NCBI GenBank assembly: GCA_016202605.1
Contig: JACQOJ010000055.1
Span: 1-61,349 of the forward strand
Direction of reading: 5' to 3'
Source: Betaproteobacteria bacterium
GTDB lineage: Bacteria > Pseudomonadota > Gammaproteobacteria > Burkholderiales > SG8-41
Length of the DNA: 61,349 bases
The notes beneath the pieces are model-generated. The model searched no databases. It was not told the DNA's origin and worked only from the letters and a program-made list of their open reading frames with translations. The position numbers and the translations under genes are program-made. This document shows, one piece after another, positions 7,261 to 61,349 of this stretch (its first letter is position 1; each line of letters begins with the position of its first letter).

Positions 7261-7358
7261 GTTCGGTTCAGCCTTGGGTTATCATTCGTGAGCGGGATAC
7301 GACGACTGTAGTATAACAATCACGGTTGTGCCTGGACGCGTGTGGGAGGAGGAATCGA

Positions 7359-8342: not shown

Positions 8343-8382
8343 ATAACGAACATCTCTGTGGTTGAAGCCGTTCAGGACTTGC

Positions 8383-9924: not shown

Positions 9925-10092
9925 GGCTCGCAACCAGCCGTCAGTCGTCAGTCGTCAGCAATCGGTGACTCGTGACGGGTGATGCACCGTGGTCCGGGCG
10001 CGCCGCGCGGTGAAGCTTTCCGGCGCGGGCGCTTTCGTTGATAATCCTGACTCCGCCTATTCGCCATTGCTTTGAACCGATCCACATCGACC

Positions 10093-10824: not shown

Positions 10825-10845
10825 AATTTGACCGGAGGAGCGGGA

Positions 10846-28061: not shown

Positions 28062-31000
28062 GCGCGGCAGGTCTCGATCGGTTGTGCGAACTTGCGGGCA
28101 TCGGCGTCGAATACGCCGACATCTGGGGCCGGATGCACCGGCCTCCGGACGGCACACGCGTCGCGCTCCTCGAAGCGATGGGTTTGATCGCGCGCGGAGC
28201 CGACATCGCGGCGGCGCTCACGGCTTGGGAAGAACGAGCAAGAAGCGAAGTGCTCCCGCCGGTCGTAGTTCTGCGCGAGGGCGCGACGCCGTATCGCGTA
28301 TCCGTGCGCCTGCCCGAACGGTCCTCGGAAAAGACTCACCGCTTCACGCTCGCGCTCGAGACGGGCGCGGCGCGCGACGGAGAATTCCGCCCGGCCGATC
28401 TGCCGCGGCGCGCCGCGCCCGAAGCGAGTGGCGCACGTCACGTCGAGTTCGGCTTCGAGTGGCGCGAGCGCCTGCCGCTCGGCTACCACCGTCTCGAACT
28501 CCATTTGCCCGATGGCGACGGGGCGGCGACGACGCTCGTCATCGTTCCGGAGCGCTGTTACGTTCCGGCGGCGCTCGAAAGCGAAGGGCGCACTTGGGGG
28601 CCGGCGCTGCAGCTCTACGGGGTGCGCTCGGAGCGCAATTGGGGCATCGGCGATTTCACCGATCTGCTCGCCGTCGTGGAGCAGTGGGGCCAGCGCGGCG
28701 CGGGCATTGTCGGTGTCAATCCGCTTCACGCGCTCTATGCGCATAACCCTTCGCACGTGAGTCCGTACAGTCCGTCGTCGCGCCTGTTCCTGAACGTGCT
28801 CTACATCGATATCGAGGTCGTGGAGGACTTTCGTGAAGGCGCCGCCACCGCCGCCGTGCGTTCGGCGCAGTTCCAGGCGCGCCTCGGGACGCTGCGCGAG
28901 GCCGATCAGGTCGATTATCCCGCGGCCGCAGAGTCGAAGTTGCCGGTTCTCGATGAACTCTACCGGCATTTCCGTGCCCGGCATCTGGCGGCTGACACGC
29001 CCCGTGCCCACGCCTTCCGGGAGTTCCAGCAGCATGGCGGCGAGCGGCTGCGCAGGCACGCCCTGTTCGAGACGCTCTGCGAGCGGTTCCGCACCGGGGA
29101 TCCCCCGGCATGGGGCTGGCAGGCGTGGCCGGAGGCGTATCGCGACCCCGCATCGCGCGCGGTCGCGGACTATGCCGCAGCCCGCATCGAACGGATCGAG
29201 TTCCACGAATACCTGCAATGGCAGGCGGACCTGCAGCTGGGTCGGGTCGGTGCGCGTTCCTGTCAGCTCGAGCTGGGGGTCGGTTTGTACGAGGATCTCG
29301 CGGTTTCGATCGACCGCGGCGGCGCGGACGCGTGGGCCGACCAGGATCTCTACGCGATTGACGCGAGCGTCGGCGCGCCGCCCGATGACTTCAACCTCGC
29401 GGGACAGAACTGGGGTCTGCCGCCGATGCGCCCGGCGCGTCTGCGTGCCGCCGCCTACGAGCCGTTCATCGCGCTGCTGCGCGCCAACATGCGTCACGCC
29501 GGCGCGCTCCGCATCGACCATGTCATGGGGCTTGCGCGCCTGTTCTGGATTCCGCCGGGCGGCCTGCCGGCCGACGGCGCCTACGTTCACTATCCCTTCG
29601 AAGATTTGCTCGGCGTCGTGGCGCTCGAAAGCCACCGCAACCGTTGCGCGGTGATCGGCGAGGATCTGGGCACGGTGCCCGACGAAGTGCGCCACGCCCT
29701 CGCGCGCACCGGAGTCCTTTCCTATCGCCTGCTCTATTTCGAACGCACGGCGGCGGGGGATTTCAAGCCGCCCCCGGAATATCCCGTCGACGCGTTGGTC
29801 GCCGCGAGCACCCACGATCTGCCCACGCTGGCCGGATACTGGGAGGGCCGCGATCTCGATCTGCGGCACGAGCTCGGCCTGTTTTCCGACGACGCGGTGC
29901 GCCAGGCGCAGGTGGTCGCCCGCGCACAGGATCGCGCGCGATTGCTGCTCGCCCTCGAGCGCGAGCGGCTGCTGCCGCAGGGCGCGGGCGTCAACCCGGT
30001 GTCGCTGCCTTCCATGACGCCCGAGTTCGCGCTCTCGATACACGAGTATCTCGCGCGCACTCCGGCGCGCATCCTGGTGCTGCAGCTCGAGGATCTGCTC
30101 GGCGTGCGCGAGCAGGCAAATCTGCCGGGGACCATCGATGGGCACCCGAACTGGCGCCGCAAGCTTCCGCTCGGACTGGAGCAGATCGTCCGCGATCCGC
30201 GGTTCATCGCCCTCACGCAGGCGCTGGCCAGAGCGCGTCCCGGAGCGCGGCTCACGGGGCATCATCCCGGCGCGCGCGCAATCGTCCGCATCCCGCGCGC
30301 GACCTACCGGCTGCAGCTCAATCGCGAATTCGGTTTCAGGCAGGCCGCCGCGATCGTTCCCTACCTCGCCGAGCTGGGCATCAGCCATCTTTACTGCTCG
30401 CCCTGTCTGCGGGCGCGTCCGGGCAGCACGCACGGCTACGATATCGTCGATCACCGCACGCTCAATCCCGAAATCGGCTCGCCCGGCGAGTTCGAGCACC
30501 TGGCTGCGCTTCTGCGCGAGCGCGGCATGGGCCAGATCTTCGACATGGTGCCCAACCACATGGGCGTGATGGGCAGCGACAACGACTGGTGGCTCGACGT
30601 ACTGGAAAACGGAGTGTCGTCGCCGTATGCGGGTTTCTTCGACGTCGATTGGCTGCCGGTCAACGCGGAGCTCGCCAACAAGGTGCTCGTGCCGGTGCTG
30701 GGGGACCATTACGGATCAGTGCTCGAACGCGGGGAACTGCGGCTCGAGTTCGACCGCGCCGCCGGTTCGTTCAGCATCCTTTATCACGAGCATCGCTTTC
30801 CGGTCGACCCGTGCGAGTATCCGCGCATCATCGAACCCGCGTTGAATGCCGCGGGGGTGCACGGCCTTCCGGAGCCGGAGCGGGCCGAACTCCCGAGTCT
30901 CTCCGCGGCATTCGGGCATCTTCCGCTGCGCCACGATCCGGCCCCCGAGCGCATGGCCGAGCGTCAGCGCGACAAGGAATTGCTCAAACGCCGATTCGCG

Positions 31001-45017: not shown

Positions 45018-45154
45018 GATGATCCTTCCCGGCTGGCATATGAATTCGATATTCTAACGGTCGGTCGGGGCGCGTCGGGCATTGAGCATGTCCGGCCTCA
45101 TCACGTCCGCCGGAGGGGCGGTCGGTACTATATGCGCTCGATTTTTCATCGTTG

Positions 45155-47893: not shown

Positions 47894-47934
47894 TACCCTG
47901 GATACAACCAAGTCATACGGGGGAATCCTGGCCA

Positions 47935-49905
47935 ATGGGTGAACTGTTGCTGGAAACGCTCCTCCTGCTGGGCGTGGCGGTGTTTATCGTGACCGTGTTC
48001 CAGCGCCTGCGCATCCCTTCGAGTCTCGGCTATTTCCTCGTCGGCGTTGTCCTCGGCCCCCACACCGCGGGACCGGTCGTCGACGCCCAGCATATCCGTG
48101 TCGCGGCGGAGCTCGGTATCGTTTTCCTGCTGTTCACGATCGGGCTCAATTTCTCGTTGCCGCAGATCTACGCGCTGCGCCATCTGGTCTTCGGATTGGG
48201 AACGGGCCAGGTGCTGCTCACCACGACGATCTTCGGCTTCATCGCCTGGCTCGCCGGCCTGCCGCCAGCCGCGGCGTTCGTCGTCGGCGCGGTATTCGCG
48301 CAATCCTCGACCACGATCATCAGCAAACAACTCCTCGAGCAGGGCGAAGAACAGAGCCGGCACGGCCGGCTGGCGCTGGCGATGTCGGTGTTCCAGGATG
48401 TCACCGCCGTGCCGTTCGTGGTGATCATCCCGGTGCTTGCGGCCGCCGGCGCCGGCTCGCTCGCGCTGCCGCTGGCGTGGGCGCTGGCGAAGGCGTTGTT
48501 CGCGTTCGCCCTGGTCCTTCTGGCCGGCCTCTGGCTGTTGCGCCCTCTGTTCCATGAGATCGCCGCGCGGCATTCGCCGGAACTGTTCACGCTGACCGTG
48601 CTTTTCGTTTCCCTGGTTTCGGCGTGGATGACGCACAGCCTCGGCCTGTCGATGGCCTTCGGCGCATTTCTTGCCGGCATGATGCTGGGCGAGACCGAGT
48701 TCCGTCACCAGATCGAATCCGCCATCCGTCCGTTCCGGGATGTGCTGCTCGGTCTGTTCTTTGTTACCGTGGGGATGCTGCTCGATCCGGCGTCCCTTCT
48801 GCAACTGTGGCACTGGGCCGCGATCGGGGCCCTGGCGTTGCTCGCCGTCAAGGCGCTTCTCGTCGGGCTGATGGTGCGCTGGGCCAAGGTCGATGCCGCC
48901 ACCGCCTGGCGCACGGGTATCGTGCTGGCGGTGGGCGGAGAGTTCGGTTTCGCGCTGCTTGCCATTGCGCTCGAAGCCCGGGCGATTGCGCCGCAGGCTG
49001 CGCAGATCGCGCTCACCGCCGTGTTGCTCAGCATGATCGCGGGGCCGTTTATCATCCGCTATAACCATCGACTCGCCGTCAGGGTCGGCGGCAATGCAGG
49101 GCAACCGCCGCCCGACGTGCCGGCGGCGGGCATACCGGAAACCCCGGCCCTGCGCGACCACGTGATTATCTGCGGCTACGGCCGCATCGGCCAGAACGTC
49201 GGACACTTCCTGGAAGAGGAGCGGTTCCCGTATGTGGCGCTCGATCTTGACGCGGCCCGGGTGCGCGCGGCTCACACCGCGGGTGAACCGGTCTATTACG
49301 GTGATGCCGCCGAGCGCGACATCCTCGAGACCGTCGGCATCGGCACCGCGCGGCTCCTGGTGGTGAGTCATGACGATGTCGGCGCAGCGCTCAAGGTGTT
49401 GCATCACGTGCGTGCGCTGAGGCCGGATCTCCCGGTCATGGTGCGCACGCGGGACGAAAGCCATGTCGAGGAATTGCGGCGGGCCGGGGCGACCGAAGTG
49501 GTGCCGGAGACGCTTGAAGCGGGCATGATGATCGCCTCGCACGCCTTGCTGCTGCTGGAAGTTCCGCTGTCCCGGGTCGTTCGCCGCATGCGTGAGTCGC
49601 GGGCCGGCCGCCACCGCCTGCTGCGGGAATTCTTTCGTGGCGAGGGATCCTCTCCAAGCGATCAGGAGGACGAAACAGCCGATCGTCTGCGGCCGGTCTC
49701 CCTGGAGCCCGGAGCATATGCCGTGGGACGCTCACTTGCGGAGCTCGACCTCGGTCGCGATCATGTTCTGGCGACTGCATTGGTCCGGTCGGGGAAGCGC
49801 CATCTGGCGCCGGCGCCCGAAATACGACTCGAGGCCGGGGATGTGGTCGTGCTGTTCGGAACGCCCGAGGAACTGCAGCGCGCGGAATCCCGATTGCTCG
49901 GCTGA
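47935..49905 (+). CDS. KefB-like CPA2 cation:proton antiporter with TrkA-N and TrkA-C domains
   Basis: A 656-residue protein: a CPA2 exchanger (about 1-385, twelve or so membrane helices, with L-G-P-H and Q-D-V-T-A-V-P-F motifs), a TrkA-N nucleotide-binding domain (G-Y-G-R-I-G near residue 407, then D-A-A-E-R-D and D-D-V-G-A-A), and a TrkA-C domain at the end. This is the plan of K+/H+ antiporters such as KefB/KefC regulated by ligands. The ATG at 47935 is chosen. It follows the ATPase by 41 bases and is likely in the same operon. Confidence 0.92.
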   Translation: MGELLLETLLLLGVAVFIVTVFQRLRIPSSLGYFLVGVVLGPHTAGPVVDAQHIRVAAELGIVFLLFTIGLNFSLPQIYALRHLVFGLGTGQVLLTTTIFGFIAWLAGLPPAAAFVVGAVFAQSSTTIISKQLLEQGEEQSRHGRLALAMSVFQDVTAVPFVVIIPVLAAAGAGSLALPLAWALAKALFAFALVLLAGLWLLRPLFHEIAARHSPELFTLTVLFVSLVSAWMTHSLGLSMAFGAFLAGMMLGETEFRHQIESAIRPFRDVLLGLFFVTVGMLLDPASLLQLWHWAAIGALALLAVKALLVGLMVRWAKVDAATAWRTGIVLAVGGEFGFALLAIALEARAIAPQAAQIALTAVLLSMIAGPFIIRYNHRLAVRVGGNAGQPPPDVPAAGIPETPALRDHVIICGYGRIGQNVGHFLEEERFPYVALDLDAARVRAAHTAGEPVYYGDAAERDILETVGIGTARLLVVSHDDVGAALKVLHHVRALRPDLPVMVRTRDESHVEELRRAGATEVVPETLEAGMMIASHALLLLEVPLSRVVRRMRESRAGRHRLLREFFRGEGSSPSDQEDETADRLRPVSLEPGAYAVGRSLAELDLGRDHVLATALVRSGKRHLAPAPEIRLEAGDVVVLFGTPEELQRAESRLLG

Positions 49906-49952
49906 AGCATGACACGACAGCAGCAACGGATTGTGGCGGCAAGGAGATGGTG

Positions 49953-50117
49953 ATGAGCGGAATAACACACATACTTGTTGCCACGGACTTATCGCCGCGC
50001 GCCGAACTGGCGGCGGAGCAGGGAGCGCGGCTCGCCCGGCGGGAAGGGGCAACGCTTGATTTGCTGCACGTCGTCGGGAGGCTGCCGCTTGAAGCCGTCA
50101 AGCGCGGTCGCGGGTGA
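49953..50117 (+). pseudogene. Truncated universal stress protein (UspA-type)
   Basis: A 54-residue frame behind AAGGAG begins I-T-H-I-L-V-A-T-D-L-S-P-R-A-E-L and runs to D-L-L-H-V-V-G-R-L-P, the standard first half of a Usp domain, then ends at a TGA. Usp proteins are normally about 140-150 residues with a C-terminal ATP-binding G-x2-G-x9-G motif that is missing. The next gene begins shortly after, so a deletion or early stop has removed about two thirds. It may still be translated. Confidence 0.7.
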
Positions 50118-50166
50118 CGACAGGATCGTTACGGATGACTTCCCGAAGCGAACGGCGTCCGATGCC

Positions 50167-52830
50167 ATGGATGTGAAGAGCGTCTCCCGATCCGACTGGC
50201 ATTGCCTCGATTCCGGCGGGGCGGCCGACGCGTTGGACGTTGATGCGAGCTCCGGTCTGACGCCGGAGGAAGCGCGACGGCGTGTCGCGCGCCACGGCCG
50301 CAACGAGCTGCGCGAGGCCCGGCGCCGCCCGCCGTGGCGCATCCTGCTCGACCAGTTCGCCGATTTCATGATCCTCGTGCTGATCGCCGCGGCCATCATC
50401 TCGGGGTTGATCGGCGAGCTGCAGGACACCGTCGCGATCATTGCCATCCTGGCGCTCAACGCGGCGATCGGCTTCGTGCAGGAGTACCGTGCCGAACGCG
50501 CGATGGCCGCGCTGAAGCGCATCGCCGCGCCGACGGCCACCGTGCTGCGCGGAGGAAACCGGCTGACTCTCCCGGCGCACGACCTCGTCCCGGGGGACAT
50601 CGTGCTGCTCGAAGCGGGCAATGTCGTGCCGGCCGACCTGCGGCTCACGGAGGCGATACGGCTGAAGGTGAACGAGGCTGCGCTCACCGGCGAAGCGGCG
50701 GCGGTGGACAAGATCACGCGGACCGTCGCCGAGCGGGAAGCGCCGCTCGGCGACCGTCACAACATGGCCTACAAGGGCACGCTCGTCAGTTACGGCCGCG
50801 GGCAAGGCATCGTGGTCGCGACCGGGATGGACACGGAGCTGGGCAGGATCGCCGCGCTGCTTGCGGCCGAAGAGGACGTCAGGACCCCGCTCCAGAAACG
50901 GCTCGCAGCCTTCGGCGGGCGTCTCGCCATGGTGGTGCTCGCCATCTGCGCCATCATATTCATCGCCGGCCTCGTGCGCGGCGAGCCGCCGGTGCTCATG
51001 TTCCTCACCGCCGTGAGCCTGGCGGTGGCCGCGATTCCCGAGGCGCTGCCGGCGGTGGTGACGATCTCGCTCGCGCTGGGCGCCTACCGGATGGTGCAGC
51101 AGAACGCGTTGATCAGACGCCTGCCGGCGGTGGAGACGCTCGGTTCCATCACTTACATCTGCTCGGACAAGACCGGCACGCTCACCGAAAACCGCATGCG
51201 GGTCGATACCTGCTACGCCGCTGGCGATCTGATGCGGCCGGAGTCCGGGACCGGGGTCGCCGGGCGTCTCCTGCTGACCGCTCTTGCGCTGTGTAACGAC
51301 GCGGTCGCCGCGGGTGCGGAAGTGACCGGGGATCCCACCGAGGTTGCGCTGCAGGAAGCGGCTGCGCGCGCGGGTTTTGACAGGGCCGTCCTGGGGCAGC
51401 GGTCGCCGCGGCTCGCCGAGCTGCCGTTCGACTCCGAGCGCAAGCGCATGACGACGTTCCACGAACTCGAAGGCGAGATCGTGGGTTTCACGAAAGGCGC
51501 GCCCGAAGCGGTGCTGCAGCGGTGCGTGGCGCAGCTCGGCCGGGACGGAACGGCGCCGCTGGAGCGCGCATCCGTCGACAGGGTGACGGAGCGCATGGCC
51601 GCCGAGGGGCTGAGGGTGCTTGCCGTTGCCTATCGCGCGTGGCGCGAGCTTCCCGACCTCGAAGACGAAGAATCGATCGAGCGCGATCTGGTGTTCGTCG
51701 GTCTTGTGGGGCTCATCGATCCGCCGCGCGCCGCGGTGAGGGATGCGGTTGCCACCTGCCGCGCCGCGGGCATCGTGCCGGTGATGATCACGGGCGATCA
51801 CCCGGTCACCGCGCGGGCGGTGGCGCGCCGGCTCGACATCATCACGGATGGGGGCGAGGTGATGACGGGGCGTCAGCTTGCGCGCCTCGACGAAGCGGTG
51901 CTCGCGGAGCGCATCCACCATGTGCGCGTTTTTGCGCGCGTCGATCCGGAGCAGAAGATCCGCATCGTCAAGGCGTTGCAGGACAGGGGCGAGTACGTGG
52001 CCATGACGGGCGACGGCGTGAACGACGCGCCGGCGCTGAAACGCGCCGACATCGGCGTGGCCATGGGCACGGCGGGCACCGACGTCGCGCGTGAAGCGTC
52101 GGACGTGGTGCTGCTCGACGACAATTTCGCCACGATCGTCACCGCGGTGCGCGCGGGACGCCGCATCTACGACAATATCCGCCGCTTCATCAAGTACGCG
52201 CTGACCACGAACTCGGGGGAAATCTGGATCATCTTTCTCGCGCCCTTCCTCGGGCTGCCGATTCCGCTGCTGCCGGTTCATATCCTGTGGGTCAACCTCG
52301 TGACGGACGGCCTTCCCGGCCTGGCGCTGACGGTGGAGCCCGAGGCGCGCGCGACCATGGAACGCCCGCCGCGACCGCCCGGGGAGAGCATTTTCGCGCA
52401 CGGCATGTGGCAGCACATCGTGTGGGTCGGGCTGTTGATGAGCGGCGTCGTGCTCGCCATCCAGGCGTGGGCCTACCACGCGGGGTATCCGCACTGGCAG
52501 AGCATGGTGTTCACCGTGCTCACCTTTTGCCAGCTCGCCCACGTGCTCGCCATTCGTTCCGACCGCGAATCTTTGTTCGGTCTCGGGATCGCTTCCAACC
52601 CGCTGTTGCTGGGCGCGGTCCTCGTGACGGCGGCGTTGCAGGTGGCGATCCTGTACGTTCCCGCGCTCAACGGAATTTTCAAGACGGCACCGCTCGACGC
52701 GCCGGAACTGGCGTTGTGCGTGATCGGGGCCGGGATGATTTTCGTCGCGGTCGAAATCGAGAAATGGTTTGTACGCCGCGGCCGGCTTTATCGCGAGGAT
52801 ACGACCGGTCGCGGCGTAGTGCACCGATAA
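50167..52830 (+). CDS. Second P-type cation ATPase (P2 family)
   Basis: An 887-residue P2 ATPase with T-G-E-A in place of the usual T-G-E-S in the actuator loop near residue 178, A-A-I-P-E-A-L-P-A near 295, D-K-T-G-T at about 334, K-G-A-P-E near 445, and T-G-D-G-V-N-D-A-P-A near 620. The Ser-to-Ala change and the P-E-A-L-P-A (Gly to Ala) set it apart from the first ATPase, so the ion specificity may differ. The ATG at 50167 follows a frame from a different gene. The C-terminal four helices are complete. Confidence 0.92.
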   Translation: MDVKSVSRSDWHCLDSGGAADALDVDASSGLTPEEARRRVARHGRNELREARRRPPWRILLDQFADFMILVLIAAAIISGLIGELQDTVAIIAILALNAAIGFVQEYRAERAMAALKRIAAPTATVLRGGNRLTLPAHDLVPGDIVLLEAGNVVPADLRLTEAIRLKVNEAALTGEAAAVDKITRTVAEREAPLGDRHNMAYKGTLVSYGRGQGIVVATGMDTELGRIAALLAAEEDVRTPLQKRLAAFGGRLAMVVLAICAIIFIAGLVRGEPPVLMFLTAVSLAVAAIPEALPAVVTISLALGAYRMVQQNALIRRLPAVETLGSITYICSDKTGTLTENRMRVDTCYAAGDLMRPESGTGVAGRLLLTALALCNDAVAAGAEVTGDPTEVALQEAAARAGFDRAVLGQRSPRLAELPFDSERKRMTTFHELEGEIVGFTKGAPEAVLQRCVAQLGRDGTAPLERASVDRVTERMAAEGLRVLAVAYRAWRELPDLEDEESIERDLVFVGLVGLIDPPRAAVRDAVATCRAAGIVPVMITGDHPVTARAVARRLDIITDGGEVMTGRQLARLDEAVLAERIHHVRVFARVDPEQKIRIVKALQDRGEYVAMTGDGVNDAPALKRADIGVAMGTAGTDVAREASDVVLLDDNFATIVTAVRAGRRIYDNIRRFIKYALTTNSGEIWIIFLAPFLGLPIPLLPVHILWVNLVTDGLPGLALTVEPEARATMERPPRPPGESIFAHGMWQHIVWVGLLMSGVVLAIQAWAYHAGYPHWQSMVFTVLTFCQLAHVLAIRSDRESLFGLGIASNPLLLGAVLVTAALQVAILYVPALNGIFKTAPLDAPELALCVIGAGMIFVAVEIEKWFVRRGRLYREDTTGRGVVHR

Positions 52831-52967: not shown

Positions 52968-53441
52968 TTGTACACGCTGAGTTCAATCCTGGTTCTCTTT
53001 GTCTTCTGGCTGCTGCTCTCGGGTAACTTCACCGCGTTCCTCATCGCGGCGGGAGCGGGCTCGGCCATCGGTGTGGTGTTGCTCGCGCGGCGCATGGAGG
53101 TGGTGGACCACGAAGGCCATCCCATTCACCTGAGCTGGCGGCTCGTCACTTACTGGCCATGGTTGTTCAAGGAAATCGCCAAGAGCGCCTGGGGTGTGAC
53201 GAAGATCATCCTCAACCCGCGGCTGCCGATCAGCCCGACGCTCGTTCGCGTGCCCACTTCCCAGAAATCCACCGTTGGCGTGGTAACTTACGCGAATTGC
53301 ATCACGCTGACACCGGGCACGATCTCGGTGGAAGTGAAGGAGGGCGAGATCCTGGTCCACGCGCTGACGCGCGAGAGCGCTGACGGGCTGCTCGAGGGCG
53401 AGATGGACCGGCGCGTCACGCGCTTCGAAGGGAGGCGATGA
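52968..53441 (+). CDS. mrpE: Mrp-type Na+/H+ antiporter subunit E
   Basis: About 157 residues: two N-terminal membrane segments (L-V-L-F-V-F-W-L-L-L-S-G-N-F and following), then a soluble part with T-L-T-P-G-T-I-S-V-E-V, the MrpE signature. The start is probably the TTG at 52968, preceded by a GGAG, since the upstream extension to 52917 has no counterpart in the family. It opens a ten-gene module and overlaps mrpF by four bases. Confidence 0.88.
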   Translation: MYTLSSILVLFVFWLLLSGNFTAFLIAAGAGSAIGVVLLARRMEVVDHEGHPIHLSWRLVTYWPWLFKEIAKSAWGVTKIILNPRLPISPTLVRVPTSQKSTVGVVTYANCITLTPGTISVEVKEGEILVHALTRESADGLLEGEMDRRVTRFEGRR

Positions 53442-53728
53442 TGTTTGGGGCTGCCGCCGCCGCTCTGCTGGTTGCGCTCGCGCTGGCATTGACGCGCGCC
53501 TGCCTCGGCCCGACGGTCTTCGACCGCGCGCTCGCGGCCAACACGGTGGGCACGATCGCGGTCCTGCTGCTTGCCGTCATCGGTTTCCTCACCGACCGTC
53601 CCGAGTTCCTCGATCTCGCCATCGTCTACGGGCTGCTCAACGTCGTGGGCACGATCGCAGTGCTCAAGTATTTCGAATATGGCAACCTGGGCGACCCGGG
53701 CGACGCCGAGGAGGAGTCGAAGGCATGA
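53438..53728 (+). CDS. mrpF: Mrp-type antiporter subunit F
   Basis: A 96-residue three-helix protein with R-A-C-L-G-P-T-V-F-D-R-A-L-A-A-N-T (near residue 20), the MrpF hallmark, and D-L-A-I-V-Y-G-L-L-N near 60. The ATG overlaps the mrpE stop; its own stop overlaps mrpG, so the operon is translationally coupled. Confidence 0.9.
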   Translation: MMFGAAAAALLVALALALTRACLGPTVFDRALAANTVGTIAVLLLAVIGFLTDRPEFLDLAIVYGLLNVVGTIAVLKYFEYGNLGDPGDAEEESKA

Positions 53729-54054
53729 GCGTGTTCGTCGATGCGGTGAGTTGGGCCTGCCTGATTGCGGGCGGCGTCTTCTGCGTCATCGGTGCGGTAG
53801 GCCTGATTCGCATGCCCGAGTTTTTCACCCGCATCCATGCGGCGGGCGTCACCGATACGCTGGGCGCGGGGCTCATCCTCTTGGGGCTCATGCTGCAAGC
53901 GGGGTTCACGCTGGTGGCGGTGAAGCTCGCGATGATCGGGGTGTTGATCCTCTTCACCAGCCCGACGGCGACGCATGCGCTGGCCAAGGCAGGACTCGCC
54001 CGCGGCCTGAAGCCGCTGCTTGCGGAAGACAGGAGCAAGCCATCGAACCCGTAA
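53725..54054 (+). CDS. mrpG: Mrp-type antiporter subunit G
   Basis: A 109-residue protein with three helices and R-M-P-E-F-F-T-R-I-H-A-A-G-V-T-D-T-L-G-A near residue 30, which is diagnostic of MrpG. It overlaps the previous gene by four bases and its stop lies just after the proposed AUC start of the next gene. Confidence 0.9.
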   Translation: MSVFVDAVSWACLIAGGVFCVIGAVGLIRMPEFFTRIHAAGVTDTLGAGLILLGLMLQAGFTLVAVKLAMIGVLILFTSPTATHALAKAGLARGLKPLLAEDRSKPSNP

Positions 54055-54587
54055 TCATCACGACCCTGCTCGTCATGATGGCGGTGGTCACGGTGGTGAT
54101 CGCGCGCCAGCGCAACCTCTTCGCGGTGGTCATCCTGTTCGGCATCTACAGCTTCCTGATGGCGACCGTGCTGGTCGCGCTCGACGCGGTGGATGTGGCG
54201 ATGACCGAAGCTGCGGTTGGAGCCGGAATTTCTACCATCCTGTTCTTGAGCGCGCTGCACCTCGGCAAGGGAATCGAGATGAAGCCGTTGCACAGACCGT
54301 TCCTGCCGCTGGTGGTCGCGTTGGCCACTGGTGCGGCACTTGCCTATGGAACCCTCGGGCTGCCCGCGTTTTCCGATTCCGAGGCGCCAATCCATCAGCA
54401 CGTGGCAAAGCGCTACGTCGAGGAAGGTGCGCGCGAAACGGGGGTTCCCAACATCGTGACGGCGGTCCTGGCGAGCTACCGTGGCTATGACACGCTGGGC
54501 GAAGTGACCGTGGTGTTCACCGCCGGAATCGGGGTGATCGCGCTCCTGCGGCGAGTGCGCGGCCGCAGGCGGGGAGGCAAGCCGTGA
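54042..54587 (+). CDS. MrpA C-terminal-type subunit (DUF4040/MbhD plus MbhE-like fusion) with apparent AUC start
   Basis: About 181 residues: an N-terminal MbhD-like (DUF4040) part, R-N-L-F-A-V-V-I-L-F-G-I-Y-S-F and T-E-A-A-V-G-A-G-I-S-T (residues 20-65), and an MbhE-like second half with V-T-A-V-L-A-S-Y-R-G-Y-D-T-L-G-E-V (near 145). Family proteins begin M-E-P; here the corresponding codon is ATC at 54042, six bases after an AGGAG (54031-54035). No ATG or GTG occurs there in frame. The nearest in-frame ATG is near 54075 and would remove the first helix. A sequencing error, an AUC start or a decayed start are all possible. Confidence 0.82.
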   Translation: MEPVIITTLLVMMAVVTVVIARQRNLFAVVILFGIYSFLMATVLVALDAVDVAMTEAAVGAGISTILFLSALHLGKGIEMKPLHRPFLPLVVALATGAALAYGTLGLPAFSDSEAPIHQHVAKRYVEEGARETGVPNIVTAVLASYRGYDTLGEVTVVFTAGIGVIALLRRVRGRRRGGKP

Positions 54588-55012
54588 GGAATTATCTCGT
54601 CCTGCGCGTCATCGCGAAGCTCATGATCATGTTCATGGTGTTGTTCGCGCTCTACGTGCAGTTCCACGGCGACTTCGGTCCGGGCGGCGGCTTCCAGGCG
54701 GGGGTGATCTCGGCCGCGGCGATCGTGTTCTACGGGATCATCTTCGGATTGCCGGCGGCGCGCGAAGTCGTACCCGACCGGCTGGTCGAAGTCATGATCG
54801 CAGCCGGCGTGCTGCTGTACGCCGGCGTCGGCGTCGCCGGCTTGCTGCTGGGCGGCAACTATCTCGACTACTTCGTGCTCGGGGCCGATCCGGTCGATGG
54901 CCAGCACCGCGGCATCTTCTGGATCGAGATGGGTGTGTTGATCACCGTCGCCGGGGTGATGCTCAAGATCTTCTACATGTTCGCCGGACGGGGCGATGGA
55001 GGCGGCGAGTGA
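54584..55012 (+). CDS. mrpB: Mrp-type antiporter subunit B
   Basis: A 142-residue protein with a GTG start overlapping the previous stop. It has about four helices, and the MrpB/MbhF motif H-G-D-F-G-P-G-G-G-F-Q-A-G-V-I near residue 23, then W-I-E-M-G-V. It belongs to the core membrane module that conducts Na+/H+ exchange. Confidence 0.92.
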   Translation: MRNYLVLRVIAKLMIMFMVLFALYVQFHGDFGPGGGFQAGVISAAAIVFYGIIFGLPAAREVVPDRLVEVMIAAGVLLYAGVGVAGLLLGGNYLDYFVLGADPVDGQHRGIFWIEMGVLITVAGVMLKIFYMFAGRGDGGGE

Positions 55013-55392
55013 CCGCGATCGCCAATCACTTCAGCTACTGGGCAACGTTGTTCATCGCGATCGCGGGGCTCTACATCGTGATCGCGCGCGGCAACCTCGT
55101 GAAAAAACTCGTGGGCCTGGCGATCTTCCAGACTTCGGTCTATCTGCTCTACATCGCGCCCGGGAAGCTCATTGGGGGTACGGCGCCGATCATTGCGGAC
55201 AAGTTCGCGGTGTACTCGAACCCGCTGCCCCACGTGCTGATCCTCACCGCGATCGTGGTCGGCGTGGCTACGCTTGCGCTGGGACTTGCGATCGTGGTCC
55301 GGATCAAGGAAGCCTACGGCACCATCGAGGAGGATGAGATCCTGGCGCAGGAGCAACCTGCCCTTCAGCAAACCGCCGATAACAAGATGTAA
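55009..55392 (+). CDS. mrpC: Mrp-type antiporter subunit C (NuoK-like)
   Basis: A 127-residue NuoK-like protein with three helices; the family signature N-L-V-K-K-L-V-G-L-A-I-F-Q is near residue 25 and H-V-L-I-L-T-A-I-V-V-G-V near 78. The GTG start overlaps the mrpB stop. The C-terminal 20 residues are Glu/Gln-rich and likely cytoplasmic. Confidence 0.92.
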   Translation: MTAIANHFSYWATLFIAIAGLYIVIARGNLVKKLVGLAIFQTSVYLLYIAPGKLIGGTAPIIADKFAVYSNPLPHVLILTAIVVGVATLALGLAIVVRIKEAYGTIEEDEILAQEQPALQQTADNKM

Positions 55393-55396
55393 TATC

Positions 55397-56878
55397 TTGA
55401 TCTCACAGAATTATCCCATATTGCACGTGGTGGTGCCGCTGATCGCTGCGCCGTTGATGGTGCTTTTGCGGCACGGCGGCTTCGCCTGGCTCCTCGCCGC
55501 CGTCGCAAGCTGGTCTTCACTCGCGGTATCGGCTGCGCTGCTGGCGGAAGTCGCCGGCGGCGGCGTGATTTCGTACGCCATCGGCAGCTGGGCGCCGCCG
55601 TGGGGAATCGAGTACCGCATCGACAGCGTGAACGCGTTCCTGCTGGTGCTCGTATCGCTGATCGCGTCGGTCGTCGTGATCTACTGCCGCGAAAGCGTTG
55701 AGGCCGAGGTCGCGCCGGAGCAGCACTACCTGTTCTACACGATGTATGTGCTGTGTCTCGCGGGGCTGCTTGGAATTGCGGCCACGGGCGACGGATTCAA
55801 TCTGTTCGTGTTTCTGGAAATCTCCTCGCTGTCGAGCTACGTGCTGATCGCGCTGGGGCGCGACCGGCGGGCGCTGGTGGCGTCCTATCAGTATCTGATC
55901 ATGGGCACGATCGGGGCGACTTTCATCGTGATCGGCGTCGGGCTGCTCTTTCTCATGACCGGTACGCTCAATCTCGCGGACATGGCGGCGCGGCTGCGGG
56001 AGGTGACCGATACACGCCCGATCCTGGCCGCGCTCGCTTTCCTCACCGTCGGCATCTCGCTGAAGCTGGCGCTCTTTCCGCTGCACCTGTGGCTGCCCAA
56101 CGCCTACGCCTACGCGCCATCCGCGGTGACGGCCTTCCTTGCGGCGACCGCGACCAAGGTGTCACTGTACGTGCTGTTGCGGTTCTACTATTCGGTTTTC
56201 GGCGAGAGCGCGGTATTCATTGCGCATCCGACGAGCGATATCCTGCTCGTGCTGTCGCTCGCGGCGATGTTCATCGCGTCGACTGTCGCCATCTTTCAGG
56301 ACAACATCAAGCGCCTGTTCGCGTACTCGAGCGTGGCGCAAATCGGCTACATCACCCTCGGCGTGAGCTTCGACAGCCTCACCGGGCTCACCGCCGCCAT
56401 CGTGCATCTCTTCAACCATGCGCTCACCAAGGGCGCGATCTTCCTGCTGCTGGGCGGAATCGCGCTGCGCCTGGGCGCGGTCCGCTTCCAGGACATCGGT
56501 GGCATCGCACGGGTGATGCCGCTGACCTCGTTCGGCATCGTGCTCGCGGGCCTGAGCCTGATCGGCGTGCCGGGCACGGTCGGATTCGTCAGCAAGTGGT
56601 ATCTCGTGCTGGCGGCTATCGAGAGCGGTGCGTGGTGGCTTGCGCTGCTCATCGTGTTGAGTTCGCTGCTTGCGGTGATCTACGTCTGGCGCTTCGTCGA
56701 GGCGGCGTACTTCCAGGTGCCAAGCGCGTCCGTCTCGCGACTCAGGGAGGCGCCTCTTTCCATGTTGGTGCCGGCCTGGTTGATGGTCGCGGCCTGCCTC
56801 TATTTCGGGCTTGATGCCTCGCTCACGCTGAGCGGCGCCTCGCAGGCGGCGGCGGAACTTCTTCCGGGGAGCAGATGA
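55397..56878 (+). CDS. mrpD: Mrp-type antiporter subunit D, first copy
   Basis: A 493-residue NuoL/M/N-like subunit, about 14 helices. It has the TM5 Glu (L-E-I-S-S-L-S-S-Y), TM7 Lys (S-L-K-L-A-L-F-P-L-H-L-W-L-P), TM8 Lys (A-T-K-V-S-L-Y) and TM12 Lys (H-A-L-T-K-G-A-I-F), i.e. the full proton-path set. Start is taken as the TTG at 55397, just after mrpC, with a weak ribosome binding site; no better codon is available in this frame. Confidence 0.9.
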   Translation: MISQNYPILHVVVPLIAAPLMVLLRHGGFAWLLAAVASWSSLAVSAALLAEVAGGGVISYAIGSWAPPWGIEYRIDSVNAFLLVLVSLIASVVVIYCRESVEAEVAPEQHYLFYTMYVLCLAGLLGIAATGDGFNLFVFLEISSLSSYVLIALGRDRRALVASYQYLIMGTIGATFIVIGVGLLFLMTGTLNLADMAARLREVTDTRPILAALAFLTVGISLKLALFPLHLWLPNAYAYAPSAVTAFLAATATKVSLYVLLRFYYSVFGESAVFIAHPTSDILLVLSLAAMFIASTVAIFQDNIKRLFAYSSVAQIGYITLGVSFDSLTGLTAAIVHLFNHALTKGAIFLLLGGIALRLGAVRFQDIGGIARVMPLTSFGIVLAGLSLIGVPGTVGFVSKWYLVLAAIESGAWWLALLIVLSSLLAVIYVWRFVEAAYFQVPSASVSRLREAPLSMLVPAWLMVAACLYFGLDASLTLSGASQAAAELLPGSR

Positions 56879-58335
56879 CGCCCGAGGCGACGATCCTGCT
56901 CGCGATTGCCGTGCCGGCGGTGGGGATGGGGCTGATCGCCGCCGCCCATCGCATGCCGGACCTGCGCGAGGCGATCACGCTGGCGACCGCCGGGCTGCTT
57001 TCCGTCCTGGTGGCGTCCCTCACGCCCCTGGTGCTCGACGGCGCGCGCCCCGGCGTGACGGTCTTCGAAATGATGCCGGGGCTTGCGCTCAGATTCGAGG
57101 TTGAGCCGCTCGGTATGCTGTTCGGACTGGTCGCGTCCGGCCTGTGGATCGTCAATTCGCTCTATTCGATCGGCTACATGCGCGGCAACGAGGAGAAGCA
57201 CCAGACCCGCTTCTACGTGTGTTTCGCGGGCGCGCTCGCTGCGACGATGGGGATCGCGTTCGCCGGCAATCTGCTGACGCTTTTCCTGTTCTACGAAGCG
57301 CTCACTTTGATCACGTATCCGCTGGTCACGCATCACGTTACGCCGGGGGCGGTCAGGGCCGGACGGCTGTATCTCGGGCTGCTCGTCGGCACATCCATCG
57401 TGTTCCTGCTGGTCGCGATCATCTGGACCTGGCAGCTCGCCGGCACGATCGACTTTACTCCGGGCGGCATCCTCGGCGGCGAGGTGCCGAACGCGACGGT
57501 CGGCGTGCTGCTGGCGCTCTACGTGTTCGGGGTCGGCAAGGCTGCGGTGATGCCGGTGCACCGGTGGCTGCCCGCGGCGATGGTCGCGCCCACGCCGGTA
57601 TCCGCGCTGCTGCACGCGGTGGCGGTGGTCAAGGCGGGGGTGTTCTCGGTGCTGAAAATCGTGATCTACGTCTTCGGCGTCGAAGCGACGGCCGGCGTGA
57701 AAAGCGTTGACTGGCTGCCGTTCATGGCCGGGTTCACCATCATCGCCGCCTCCATCGTCGCGCTGCGCGCCGACAACCTGAAGCGCCGGCTTGCCTACTC
57801 GACCGTGAGCCAACTGTCGTACGTGGTGCTGGCTGCCGCGCTGCTGACGCCGCTCTCGGTCATCGGGGCGGCGCTGCACATCGCCGCGCACGCGCTCGGC
57901 AAGATCACGCTCTTCTTCGCCGCCGGCGCGATTTACACGGCCGCGCACAAGACCGAGGTGAGCCAGCTCGACGGCATCGGGCGGCGCATGCCGTGGACGA
58001 TGGGTGCTTTCACCGTGGGTGCGCTGTCGATGATCGGGCTGCCGCCGGCGGCGGGGTTCGTGAGCAAGTGGTACATACTGCAGGGCGCCATGGCGACCGG
58101 CCAGTGGAACGCGGTCGCCGTTGTCGTGGCGAGCACGCTGCTCAACGCCGGCTATTTTCTTCCCATCGTCTACCGCGCCTTTTTCGTCGCGCCGCCGGAT
58201 GACGGGCATCGCGCCCACGGCGAGGCGCCTTTCACCATGGTCGCGGCGCTGACGCTCACCGCCGCGGGCACCGTGGCGCTATTCTTCTTTCCTGACGTGC
58301 CGCTCGCGCTCGCGCGGCAGCTGGCGGGAGGCTGA
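56875..58335 (+). CDS. Mrp-type antiporter subunit D-like, second copy
   Basis: A 486-residue NuoM/N-like membrane subunit overlapping the first copy by four bases. TM5 Glu (Y-E-A-L-T-L), TM7 Lys (G-K-A-A-V-M-P-V-H-R-W-L-P), TM8 Lys (V-V-K-A-G-V-F) and TM12 Lys (H-A-L-G-K-I-T-L) are all present. The residues around them differ clearly from the first copy, so it is a paralogue rather than a recent duplication. It probably forms a second proton or ion pathway. Confidence 0.9.
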   Translation: MTPEATILLAIAVPAVGMGLIAAAHRMPDLREAITLATAGLLSVLVASLTPLVLDGARPGVTVFEMMPGLALRFEVEPLGMLFGLVASGLWIVNSLYSIGYMRGNEEKHQTRFYVCFAGALAATMGIAFAGNLLTLFLFYEALTLITYPLVTHHVTPGAVRAGRLYLGLLVGTSIVFLLVAIIWTWQLAGTIDFTPGGILGGEVPNATVGVLLALYVFGVGKAAVMPVHRWLPAAMVAPTPVSALLHAVAVVKAGVFSVLKIVIYVFGVEATAGVKSVDWLPFMAGFTIIAASIVALRADNLKRRLAYSTVSQLSYVVLAAALLTPLSVIGAALHIAAHALGKITLFFAAGAIYTAAHKTEVSQLDGIGRRMPWTMGAFTVGALSMIGLPPAAGFVSKWYILQGAMATGQWNAVAVVVASTLLNAGYFLPIVYRAFFVAPPDDGHRAHGEAPFTMVAALTLTAAGTVALFFFPDVPLALARQLAGG

Positions 58336-58336
58336 C

Positions 58337-58585
58337 ATGCAGCAGCACTGGCTCACCCGACCCGCGGCCACCCAGCGCCTGTGGTGGATATTCATCGCCA
58401 TCCTGGCGGCCACCGTCGCGGCGGAATTCTTCGTCGAGCACGAGGCGAACTTCAGCGTCGAGGCGATCTTCGGCTTCAACGCCTGGTACGGGTTCATCGC
58501 GTGCGCGGCGCTGATCCTTTTCGCCAAGGCACTCGGCCTCATGCTGAAGAAGCCGGATACCTACTACGAGAAGCGCGATGGCTAG
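58337..58585 (+). CDS. Small two-helix membrane protein of the Mrp operon
   Basis: An 82-residue protein with two hydrophobic helices (about 15-35 and 45-70) and an acidic short loop between. It starts one base after the previous stop and overlaps the next gene by eight bases. I do not recognise the family; a structural or accessory role in the antiporter complex is inferred only from its position. Confidence 0.7.
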   Translation: MQQHWLTRPAATQRLWWIFIAILAATVAAEFFVEHEANFSVEAIFGFNAWYGFIACAALILFAKALGLMLKKPDTYYEKRDG

Positions 58586-60260
58586 CCTGCTCGCACATCC
58601 GGGCCTGATCCTCATCGCCGGGGCATTCCTGCTCGTCTGGCTCCGCGGCGGCGCGCGATCCGCGGTGGCGCTCGCCGCGCCGATGGCGGCGGTGGTGCTG
58701 GCGTGGAACGTGCCGGAGGGGGTGGCGGTCCAGGCGCATTTCCTCGACTTCGAGCTCGCGCTGTTTGCGACAGACAAGCTCTCGCGGCTGTTCGCCATCA
58801 TCTTCGCGCTGATGGCTTTCGGCGGCGCGCTGTTCGCGCTCAATCAGAAGAGCCCACTCGAGCTGCCGGCGGCGCTGCTCTATGCCGGCGCGGCGATCGG
58901 CGTCGCCTTCGCCGGCGACCTCGTCACGGTATTCGTGTTCTGGGAGCTGATGGCGATCGGCTCCGCGCTGGTCGTCTGGAGCGCCGGCCGCACGGCCTAC
59001 GCCGCGAGCCTGCGTTACATGATGATCCACCTGCTGGGCGGCGTTCTGCTGATGGCAGGCATCGCGGGCCACGTCGCCGAGTTCGGCTCGATCGCGTTCG
59101 AGCGCATGACGCTCGATTCGCCCTCGCATTGGCTGATTCTCGCGGGATTCCTGATCAACGCCGGTGCGCCGCCGCTGTCGGCGTGGCTGCCCGATGCGTA
59201 TCCCGAGGCCTCGTGGAGCGGTACCGTATTCCTGTCGGCATTCACCACCAAGACCGCGGTGTACGTGCTGCTGCGCGGATTCCCCGGCACCGAGTTGCTG
59301 GTTTACGTGGGCCTGTTCATGATCTTCTACGGCATCGTCTACGCGCTGCTCGAGAACGACATGCGCCGGATTCTCGCCTACAGCATCGTAAACCAGGTCG
59401 GCTTCATGGTGACGGGCGTCGGCATCGGCACGGAGATGGCGCTCAACGGCGCGGCCGCGCACGCTTTCACGCACATCATCTACAAGGCGCTGCTGTTGAT
59501 GTCGGCCGGGTCCGTCCTGCTCATGACCGGCAGGCGAAAATGCACCGACCTCGGAGGGTTGTTCCAGTCGATGCCGCTGACGGCGGCGTGCGGCATCATC
59601 GGCGCGCTCTCGATCTCCTCGTTTCCGCTGACCTCGGGCTTCGTCAGCAAGTCGATGATTTCGCAGGCGGCCGTCGACCTGAACCTGTTCTACGTCTGGA
59701 TCGCGCTCGCCGCGGCCTCGGCCGGCGTGTTTCTGCACGCCGGGATCAAGTTCCCGTGGTTCGTGTTCTTCCAGAAGGACTCGGGTCTGCGCCCGCCGGA
59801 GCCGCCGCTCAACATGCGCGTCGCGATGATCTTCTTCTCGGTGCTGTGCATCGGGCTCGGCGTCGCGCCCGGGGCGCTCTATGAGCTGCTGCCGTACGCG
59901 GTCGATTACGTGCCGTACACCGGCGCGCATGTGGTGGCGCAGCTGCAGCTCCTGCTTTTCTCGGGGCTTGCCTTCTTCGTCATGCTCGACTACCTGCGGC
60001 GCACGCTGACCATCACTCTGGATGTCGACTGGCTGTACCGGCGCCTCGGGCCGGCCGTCTGCGGTGTTGCCGCGCGGGCGCTGGCGCGGATGTTTGCCGC
60101 ACTTGCAAGCGCGGCGCCAGCTCGCATCATGGATATCGTTTCGGCGCTGCGCCGGCACCATGGACCGGAGGGCGTGCTGGCCCGCACCTGGCCGACAGGC
60201 AGCATGGCGCTGTGGGTAATGGTGCTGCTGCTTGTTTACCTGCTGCTCTACTATCTGTAG
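58578..60260 (+). CDS. Mrp-type antiporter subunit D-like, third copy, lacks TM7 Lys
   Basis: A 560-residue NuoL/M/N-like subunit. TM5 Glu123 (F-W-E-L-M) and TM8 Lys (F-T-T-K-T-A-V-Y) are kept, as is the TM12 Lys (H-I-I-Y-K-A-L-L). But where the other copies have K-x5-P-x-H-x-W-L-P, this protein reads N-A-G-A-P-P-L-S-A-W-L-P: Asn194 replaces the Lys and Ser the His. The C-terminal 120 residues, after the main core, end in a Leu-rich helix. It overlaps the small protein by eight bases. The site is unusual for a proton-conducting subunit; it may be a structural or coupling copy. Confidence 0.9.
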   Translation: MASLLAHPGLILIAGAFLLVWLRGGARSAVALAAPMAAVVLAWNVPEGVAVQAHFLDFELALFATDKLSRLFAIIFALMAFGGALFALNQKSPLELPAALLYAGAAIGVAFAGDLVTVFVFWELMAIGSALVVWSAGRTAYAASLRYMMIHLLGGVLLMAGIAGHVAEFGSIAFERMTLDSPSHWLILAGFLINAGAPPLSAWLPDAYPEASWSGTVFLSAFTTKTAVYVLLRGFPGTELLVYVGLFMIFYGIVYALLENDMRRILAYSIVNQVGFMVTGVGIGTEMALNGAAAHAFTHIIYKALLLMSAGSVLLMTGRRKCTDLGGLFQSMPLTAACGIIGALSISSFPLTSGFVSKSMISQAAVDLNLFYVWIALAAASAGVFLHAGIKFPWFVFFQKDSGLRPPEPPLNMRVAMIFFSVLCIGLGVAPGALYELLPYAVDYVPYTGAHVVAQLQLLLFSGLAFFVMLDYLRRTLTITLDVDWLYRRLGPAVCGVAARALARMFAALASAAPARIMDIVSALRRHHGPEGVLARTWPTGSMALWVMVLLLVYLLLYYL

Positions 60261-60538: not shown

Positions 60539-61349
60539 ATGAGCAAGCAAGAGTTGAAGGAAAAACCCGCCGATTTGAAGCCGAGCGCATCGCGCCGGAA
60601 GTTCCTTACCGGGGCGTCGGTTGCGGCGGCGGGCGCCGCAATCACCGGCTTCCCGATGATTTCGGTCGCCCAGTCGCCGGTCGTGCTGAAAATGCAGGGG
60701 GCGTGGGGCGCCAAGGACATCTTCAACGAGATGGCCGAGCAGTACGTCAAACGCGTCAACGACATGGCGGGCGGGCGCCTGCGCATCGATTACCTGGTGG
60801 CCGGCGCGGTGGTGAAGGCGTTCGAGGTGATGGACGCTGTGCACAAGGGTGTGCTGGACGGCGCGCACACAGTGCCTGTTTACTGGTACGGCAAGCATAA
60901 GGCAGCGTCGCTCTTCGGCACGGGACCGGTGTTCGGCAACGACGCGCACCACACGATTGCATGGTTCTACGAGGGCGGCGGGCAGCAGCTCTACAACGAA
61001 CTGGTGCAGAAGCAGCTGAAGCTGAACGTGGTGGGCTTCCTGAACTTCCCGATGCCGACCCAGCCGTTCGGCTGGTTCAAGAAGCCGCTCAAGGATGCGG
61101 CGGGGCTGAAAGGCCTCAAGTACCGCACCGTGGGCCTCGCGGCCGACCTGTTCCAGACGATGGGCGCGAAAGTGACACAGTTGCCGGGCGGCGAGATCGT
61201 CCCGGCGCTCGAGCGCGGCGTCATCGACGCTTTCGAGTTCAATAATCCAACCTCGGACATGCGCTTCGGCGCGCAGGACGTCATCAAAAACTACATGATG
61301 GGGAGCTATCACCAGGCGTCCGAGAGCTTCGAGATCGTCTTCAACAAGA
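60539..61349 (+). CDS. TRAP transporter solute-binding protein (DctP family), partial at window edge
   Basis: About 270 residues are visible and the gene continues past the edge. A twin-arginine signal (S-R-R-K-F-L-T-G-A near residue 18) suggests export by Tat, then the mature part starts M-Q-G-A-W-G-A-K-D-I. The family segment R-T-V-G-L-A-A-D-L-F-Q-T-M-G-A-K-V near residue 197 and A-L-E-R-G-V-I-D-A-F-E near 222 identify a DctP-type receptor. A GGAGGA precedes the ATG. It likely binds a carboxylate; the membrane subunits are outside the window. Confidence 0.9.
   Translation, partial: MSKQELKEKPADLKPSASRRKFLTGASVAAAGAAITGFPMISVAQSPVVLKMQGAWGAKDIFNEMAEQYVKRVNDMAGGRLRIDYLVAGAVVKAFEVMDAVHKGVLDGAHTVPVYWYGKHKAASLFGTGPVFGNDAHHTIAWFYEGGGQQLYNELVQKQLKLNVVGFLNFPMPTQPFGWFKKPLKDAAGLKGLKYRTVGLAADLFQTMGAKVTQLPGGEIVPALERGVIDAFEFNNPTSDMRFGAQDVIKNYMMGSYHQASESFEIVFNK

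Follow-up and report, generated by a model that had tools for sequence, protein, structure and literature searches.

What does an Mrp operon encode when it carries three antiporter-like subunits and neither MrpA nor a hydrogenase? The question is raised by a contig of 61,349 nucleotides from a Betaproteobacteria bacterium (GenBank assembly GCA_016202605.1, contig JACQOJ010000055.1), called the window below, in which ten co-directional genes occupy positions 52968-60260 of the forward strand. The window is one entire contig, and its right edge is the contig end, with nothing readable past it; the source assembly comprises 2.8 Mb in 156 contigs and is 73.7% complete. The operon probably encodes a stand-alone group 3 Mrp (CPA3) cation/H+ antiporter, driven by the proton-motive force or membrane potential, in which the antiporter-like subunits number three and the cation path is altered. 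Published work is cited by PubMed Central (PMC) number, for statements made in excerpts of the articles concerned.

The genes run 5′ to 3′ in the order E, F, G, an MbhD+MbhE fusion, B, C, D1, D2, s and D3, all on the + strand, and neighbours mostly overlap by 4-8 bases. The MrpE-like subunit (52968..53441; Pfam MNHE, E=2.5e-32) has a TTG start, with another in-frame TTG upstream at 52917. It is followed by an MrpF-like subunit (53438..53728; MrpF_PhaF, 5.1e-17; PDB alignments), which retains Asp29 and Asp59 and has Asn as residue 35, and an MrpG-like subunit (53725..54054; PhaG_MnhG_YufB, 1.9e-25). The MbhDE fusion of 178 amino acids (aa) (54051..54587; MbhD, 1.5e-16; MbhE, 9.1e-14) was aligned to 7qru_A and 6cfw_E, the MrpB/MbhF-like subunit (54584..55012; MnhB, 3.4e-26) matched 7qru_B in the PDB, and the MrpC/NuoK-like subunit (55009..55392; Oxidored_q2, 1.5e-19) completes the small subunits. 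Three Proton_antipo_M proteins and a small one make up the rest. D1 is MrpD-like (55397..56878; 4e-62), its most likely start being the TTG at 55397, and has MbsH as top PDB match (3.8e-64), while D2 (56875..58335; 1.5e-52) has MbhH (8.8e-37). The s gene (58337..58585) encodes 82 aa with two long predicted helices, and D3 (58578..60260) scored 693.7 bits against the PRK12668 cut-off of 564. NCBIfam cut-offs were exceeded by five proteins, namely MbhDE (PRK12504), B (PRK12508), C (PRK07375.2-3), G (TIGR01300) and D3, so that the operon is not a chance assembly; E, F, D1 and D2 gave strong matches below the cut-off. Pfam and NCBIfam assigned nine of the ten proteins to a family, and PDB matches were obtained for F, MbhDE, B, C and D1. 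No RNA elements were detected in the window at gathering thresholds. Thus, the ten genes listed with their positions and order in a preliminary description of this DNA were confirmed by open reading frames, Pfam and NCBIfam, and so were its three antiporter-like subunits.

Group 3 Mrp systems have no mrpA and one or several mrpD (PMC8415708); the group has also been worded as one of irregular gene order, and other irregular clusters with several D genes were listed (PMC5703873). In the window, E, F, G, B, C and D are encoded together, as judged by Pfam, NCBIfam and PDB matches, mrpA is missing and mrpD-type genes are present. No antiporter open reading frame of MrpA size was found in the operon or the surrounding window, and the sole match to the MbhD domain (PF13244) in the assembly at E <= 0.001 is the 178-aa fusion. 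The large MrpA is therefore absent, as had been claimed. The lack of a hydrogenase alongside was likewise upheld: no NiFe hydrogenase subunits adjoin the operon, and PF00374 gave 0 matches in the assembly at its 73.7% completeness. Neither a hydrogenase nor another redox partner was seen in the window. The Mbh-like gene order noted earlier holds for the antiporter half, but it is not peculiar, since mrpEFGBB'CD of Pyrococcus furiosus and MrpEFGBCD1D2D3 are in print.

The stand-alone Mrp of P. furiosus, whose MrpB is an MbhD+MbhE fusion and whose coupling ion is Na+ (PMC8415708), resembles the window operon in its first seven genes, their order, the MbhDE fusion and the lack of both mrpA and a redox module. 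Compared by published gene order, it has one antiporter-like subunit, whereas D2, s and D3 are added here. MrpEFGBCD1D2D3 was named for the haloalkaliphilic Verrucomicrobiota Verruconatronum alginivorum (PMC13274419, 2026), mrpD followed by two NuoM/NuoL-like genes was described for Candidatus Nitrospira alkalitolerans (PMC7784846), and other multi-D clusters are known from Microbacterium (mrpFGBCDDAE) and from cyanobacteria (mrpCDCDEFGBB; PMC5703873). Likened by description, these four operons resemble the present one in joining more than one D-type subunit to E, F, G, B and C. The operon type is already in print, as annotation, and its gene order is not new. The annotation of Haloferax volcanii also carries three D subunits.

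Against the membrane-bound hydrogenase (MBH) and sulfur reductase (MBS) of P. furiosus (6cfw, 6u8y), the antiporter half is ordered as in MBH, and the closest solved relatives by sequence are MbhH for D2 and MbsH' for D3. MBH and MBS have hydrogenase or sulfur-reductase subunits, whereas the ten-gene operon has none, and MbhB and MbsB carry Asp where MrpF carries Asn here. The group 1/2 Mrp complexes of Bacillus, Anoxybacillus and Dietzia (7qru, 6z16, 7d3u) share with it the small subunits, MrpD and, by prediction, a lateral helix on the outermost subunit. They have MrpA, MrpF Asp35 and MrpC His37/His40, none of which is kept here, and D2 and D3 are not orthologous to the N-terminal half of MrpA.

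To what extent the operon recurs was judged from the 80 loci, out of 581, that scored best in similarity to D3, and from a further set of 20 fetched stretches. All ten genes were found in order in 61 of the 80 loci, two of which adjoin further Mrp-like genes, and in 15 of the 20. The ten-gene order of the preliminary description is thus not confined to this contig. In 15 of the remaining loci of the larger set, the D3 match starts <=4.3 kb from a contig end and the rest of the operon is out of reach. In the smaller set, one further locus is truncated, its contig beginning inside D2 (L075), two are complex I operons (L066, L077), and one carries only distant D2 and D3 (L085). The 80 loci are distributed over Alphaproteobacteria (32), Gammaproteobacteria (30), Betaproteobacteria (15) and others (3), and the full operon is present in Bradyrhizobium retamae Ro19, Magnetovibrio blakemorei MV-1, Haliea salexigens DSM 19537 and Thiorhodococcus minor DSM 11518. 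D3 exceeded the PRK12668 cut-off in 11 of 60 relatives and in 21 of 398 genomes sampled across the phylum. The haloarchaeon Halomontanus rarus has a nine-gene operon in the same order (E, F, G, MbhDE, B, C, D1, D2, D3) and with the same Asn and Gln substitutions described below. It differs in lacking the s gene, no s-like sequence being found among its nine proteins.

Some loci depart from this arrangement. Two (L082, 9904-13307; L102, about 8200-11665) contain D2-s-D3, and the stretches fetched gave no match to any other Mrp gene. Three others (L122, L126, L129; about 6400-11700) are reduced to C-D1-D2-s-D3, E, F, G, B and MbhDE having gone unmatched in the stretches fetched; by eye, these units sit 3′ of nuoL/M/N-like open reading frames. 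One full ten-gene operon (L140) lies in a metagenome-assembled genome titled Klebsiella pneumoniae, a title that is probably a binning or naming error. On contig C60 of genome G010, a ten-gene operon stands back to back with an Mrp operon having a long fused MrpA (L072 and L170); residue 35 of MrpF is Asp in the MrpA-bearing operon (L170) and Asn in the ten-gene operon.

The relationships of the antiporter-like subunits were addressed in a tree of 67 protein rows, in which D1, D2 and D3 each formed a single branch (support 100/100). The two MrpA rows paired at 99/96 and were joined by NuoL_Ecoli and HyfD in a four-row set at 100/99. MrpA orthology of D2 or D3 was not supported by this tree, as neither joins MrpA. 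The comparison with MrpA that the preliminary description had called for thus places D2 and D3 on branches of their own. The trees are unrooted, and the deep branching order is unsafe because of long branches. Given these and the open forks, the tree does not settle which branches are the exact sisters of D2 and D3, and the placement of MbsH' beside D3 is flagged as a long-branch join. A 672-aa antiporter-like protein of the source genome (L003; G000 contig C137) groups with E. coli HyfB (100/100); this row, first labelled NuoL, is therefore HyfB-like and no NuoL control. It coexists with no PF00374 hydrogenase match in the incomplete assembly.

The last three genes also occur in a second type of operon. 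On plasmids of S. meliloti, R. lentis and Pararhizobium, nuoJ and nuoK are followed by D2, s, D3, nuoM, nuoN, nuoA and onward, and D2-s-D3 occupies the NuoL position of the rhizobial complex I operons. Substitution of NuoL by two MrpD-like subunits has been described for 'green complex I' (PMC9040806; see also PMC7415380). The rhizobial enzyme (nuo2) shares the D2-s-D3 set, with a D3 identity of 50-52% for the listed rhizobial rows and Asn at the position of the lysine in transmembrane helix 7 (TM7). It differs in belonging to a nuo redox enzyme and in its D3 tail of 97 residues, 25 longer than the 72 here. The window cassette does not lie inside a nuo operon: Mrp genes are found 5′ of it and a gene for a tripartite ATP-independent periplasmic (TRAP) transporter 3′, and its D3 tail is of the Mrp type. 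The suggestion that the extra D-like proteins and the small protein replace hydrogenase subunits was not supported by any comparison; what the cassette replaces, in rhizobial complex I, is NuoL.

To which subunits D3 is built alike was assessed with an AlphaFold model from 50 sequences (predicted local distance difference test score, pLDDT, 88.4; predicted template modelling score, pTM, 0.85). The antiporter core of the model is followed by a 45-residue helix (484-528) and a last TM helix (540-559). With VIA-align, it matched mycobacterial NuoL (8e9g_L; Z 45.1, 4.3 Å, 524 residues), MrpA (7qru_A; Z 43.6, 2.4 Å, 500 residues, model 3-508) and MbsH' (6u8y_X; Z 42.4, 4.6 Å, 485 residues, model 4-560). 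The C-terminus of D2 is short and leaves a lateral helix no room. D3 is thus predicted to have the NuoL/MrpA/MbsH' architecture of a lateral helix and a last TM helix, without being an orthologue of MrpA.

The helix HL of MrpA braces the complex (Steiner and Sazanov, PMC7419157), and the length of HL is described as tracking pump number, being short in MBH but long in complex I (PMC7684303). The D3 tail was counted as the residues past the Arg488 column in an alignment of 105 rows, of which 98 come from bacteria and lie outside complex I; the five rows from complex I, L085 and the haloarchaeon were kept separate. The tail measured 70-75 residues in 96 of the 98 bacterial copies (72 in the window) and 96-97 in all five complex I copies, in which NuoM, NuoN, D2 and D3 give four antiporter-like subunits. 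In L085 it was 70. The step of about 25 residues between the Mrp-type and the complex I D3 is close to the additional 26-residue insert reported for a five-pump complex I (PMC9040806). These lengths suggest an Mrp-type D3 made to reach along three antiporter-like subunits.

The small protein s gave no Pfam or NCBIfam match. Its homologues from other loci were aligned (17, then 55), and the AlphaFold model has helices at 9-29 and 47-70 (pLDDT 78.7; pTM 0.48). The best two hits of a PDB sequence search were taste-receptor chains (E 0.93 and 0.98). Identity with MbhI or another known subunit was rejected, there being no family, no credible PDB sequence match and no structure match at Z >= 2; the structure comparison covered one Foldseek chain only, and a known fold for s is still possible.

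The history of s and D3 within the locus was followed through the residue at the TM7 position of D3, which is either Lys or Asn. In the D2 tree, 17 closely related loci cluster at 98/95. In four of these, D3 groups with distant lysine-type D3 (100/100 in the D3 tree), and monophyly of the 17 loci on D3 was rejected by the approximately unbiased (AU) test (p 1.0e-5). The Lys/Asn state requires one change on the D3 tree, as against seven on the D2 tree. Two loci (L071, L121) present the reverse case, an Asn-type D3 next to a D2 of the lysine-type set. Between the four loci and the other 13, mean identity was 68.9% for D1 and 70.5% for D2, as compared with 48.4% for D3 and 33.8% for s. To the distant lysine-type set, the four were nearer, at 57.0% for D3 and, less clearly, at 38.7% for s. 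The simplest account of these sequences is that the s-D3 pair was replaced in place within the locus. If the two were replaced as a pair, s would be a partner of D3.

How might such a complex work? In a stand-alone group 3 Mrp of this kind, the MbhDE fusion together with E, F, G, B and C would form the cation-translocating half. D1, of the MrpD type, would adjoin this half, followed by D2, with D3 outermost. The amphipathic lateral helix of D3 would run back along the antiporter-like subunits and, anchored by the last membrane helix, act as a clamp, D3 taking the role of the N-terminal half of MrpA. The s protein may be the partner of D3, perhaps at the D2/D3 junction. Entry of H+ via D1, D2 and perhaps D3 would then expel the cation. 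The key Glu and Lys residues are present in D1 and D2. D1 has E142, K224, K255 and K401 (in the 494-aa frame from 55394), and D2 has E141, K222, K253 and K398. The TM5 Glu, TM8 Lys and TM12 Lys are retained in every aligned row of D1 (87), D2 (94) and D3 (101; E123, K225 and K358), and the TM7 Lys is retained in 85 of 87 rows of D1 and 92 of 94 of D2.

Several observations weigh against this reading. The lateral helix and the last TM helix of the D3 model fall in blocks with pLDDT of just 57-78. The structure does not single out MrpA, because the MrpA match ends at residue 508 and the D3 core matches an MrpD chain (9a6h_B) at Z 43.6, equal to that of MrpA. Two bacterial tails are shorter than the rest (65 in L126 and 64, the shortest, in L129). 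The D3 of H. rarus, with the same three pumps in its operon, has a tail of 103 residues with a Gly/Ser-rich stretch, a length that speaks against a strict tail rule. At the TM7 position, D3 has Asn in 90 of 101 rows (Asn194 in the window) and Lys in 11, a ratio that is no population estimate because the loci were chosen as the best by D3 similarity. A third working pump is doubtful, as the window D3 is without this lysine. In the cation path, the window and all 76 loci with an F match carry Asn as residue 35 of MrpF, nine lysine-type rows included, and His was found at neither of two MrpC columns, those of His37 and His40, in any of 77 rows. With MrpF Asn35 and the loss of the His pair, the path may work unlike that of the solved Mrp complexes. 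No functional or transport study of a three-D member was found in the open-licence PMC literature.

Do all three antiporter-like subunits conduct protons? Three working channels would make the antiporter electrogenic, at about 3 H+ per cation, and would allow a cation gradient to be built or kept at low proton-motive force. The recurrence of three such subunits in the 61 loci agrees with this, as does the tail rule, which suits a row of three pumps. In most rows, D1 and D2 have their full set of key residues, and D3 keeps its other three throughout. A model with 2 H+ per Na+ exists for the two-pump Mrp, although the same source states the stoichiometry of Mrp to be unknown (PMC9568556). The predominance of Asn at TM7 of D3, in a sample largely drawn by similarity to the window D3, argues against a third channel, and we regard three working channels as possible and rather less than an even chance. 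The extra ion stoichiometry proposed in the preliminary description stands to this extent only: three pumps in a row, as favoured by the tail rule, may allow more than 2 H+ per cation, whereas the loss of the TM7 lysine may silence one of them.

The Asn-type D3 could instead be a brace and not a pump, with the lateral helix and s holding the complex together and only D1 and D2 conducting H+. In favour of this, the TM7 Asn extends throughout one D3 clade and is common to rhizobial complex I and the haloarchaeon, and the Lys/Asn state changes once on the D3 tree. The invariant TM5 Glu, TM8 Lys and TM12 Lys of D3, however, would be needless for a pure brace, and MbsH has Glu in place of the TM7 lysine and yet is proposed as a pump (PMC7684303). 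A purely bracing role for D3 is possible, at less than even odds.

The substitutions could also reflect a change of cation, to K+, Ca2+ or another ion in place of Na+, or a different ion coupling. MrpF D35 was described as 'invariably conserved', lies on the cation path, and is inactive as D35L (Steiner and Sazanov, PMC7419157; A. flavithermus numbering). Asp was found at this position in the solved MrpF, MbhB and MbsB, by PDB alignments, and in 28 of 28 other Pseudomonadota MrpF; this comparison drew on 30 loci and the canonical operon L170, with L192, L195 and L198 dropped as motif-less (L171 is motif-less too). In MrpC, Thr42 and Tyr45 replace His37 and His40 of A. flavithermus MrpC. Over the 77 rows, the His37 column holds Thr (56), Val (9), Ser (8) and others (4), and the His40 column Phe (38), Tyr (37) and Ile (2), and Gln41 is present in all 77, where MbsG has Glu and MbhG Asp. 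H. rarus likewise has Asn in MrpF and D3 and Gln in MrpC at these positions. The cation path pattern of the solved group 1/2 complexes (6z16, 7qru) is thus absent at MrpF Asp35 and MrpC His37/His40, which denies the residue pattern and not the group 3 membership. As the path is changed, the transported ion is uncertain, and some Mrp move K+ or Ca2+ (PMC5703873). On the other hand, MrpF Asp29 and Asp59 are invariant in the rows aligned, and so are Glu53 and Glu151 of the MbhDE fusion (76 of 76 rows). Replacement of D35 by Glu or Asn was mild in B. subtilis itself, although substitutions had severe effects when expression was in E. coli (PMC7419157), and the group 3 Mrp of P. furiosus, likened by gene order and not by residues, couples Na+ (PMC8415708). 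A change of ion or of coupling is possible, again at less than even odds.

That the operon is an ancestral Mrp/Mbh intermediate, as the preliminary description had it, is very improbable: the Mbh-like order, the fused MbhDE and the occurrence in both Pseudomonadota and a haloarchaeon would agree with it, but the unrooted tree, with its long or open deep branches, lends no support, and gene order says little on age because D2-s-D3 occurs in two operon types and s-D3 was exchanged within one locus.

Some of these elements can be joined to the stand-alone group 3 Mrp that we prefer. Tentatively, and at odds that we would not put near even, the operon represents a branch of group 3, in Pseudomonadota and at least one haloarchaeon, with three pumps in a row, a neutralised cation entry and, in the clade of the window D3, no TM7 lysine. 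D2-s-D3 would then be a plug-in distal pump shared with complex I, fitted by a ruler of about 25 residues per pump.

Directly 3′ of D3 lies a TRAP transporter solute-binding protein (60539..61349, + strand; Pfam DctP, 1.4e-23), cut by the contig end and excluded from the system. Besides the window, 10 of the 92 loci that leave at least 1.5 kb of room have a TRAP gene in this place, one being a weak 27% match, and it accompanies both Lys-type and Asn-type D3. As a general rule the TRAP neighbour was rejected on this count; the link is local. That the cation gradient feeds the adjoining TRAP transporter is a guess. On the 5′ side, the window region 45152-52830 is a run of cation transport genes leading into the Mrp operon, with P-type cation ATPases at 45152-47893 and 49975-52830, directly 5′ of the operon on the same strand, and between them a CPA2-type antiporter with TrkA domains (47860-49905). 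The second ATPase was matched in 2 of 100 compared loci, many of which are short on the upstream side. Further away, a single open reading frame of 1709 aa (28058-33187) combines a MalQ-type 4-alpha-glucanotransferase with an alpha-amylase-family domain.

The changed residues, the helix ruler and the joint exchange of s and D3 are the results that merit following; no papers on the Asn of MrpF, on the s protein or on the 72/97 tail rule were found in the open-licence PMC literature. The tail rule would give a count of pump subunits in uncharacterised complexes from sequence only, and the shared D2-s-D3 cassette ties Mrp to the rhizobial green complex I proposed to serve nitrogen fixation (PMC7415380). 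Ion coupling in Mrp and complex I is disputed, and one of the arguments depends on residues described as invariant. A widespread branch that lacks them, present in strain-named organisms, permits a direct test. If the tentative picture of a branch with a neutralised cation entry is true, that branch would be a natural experiment: the cation route accepted for Mrp would prove mistaken or unnecessary, or else these complexes move another ion with another coupling ratio.

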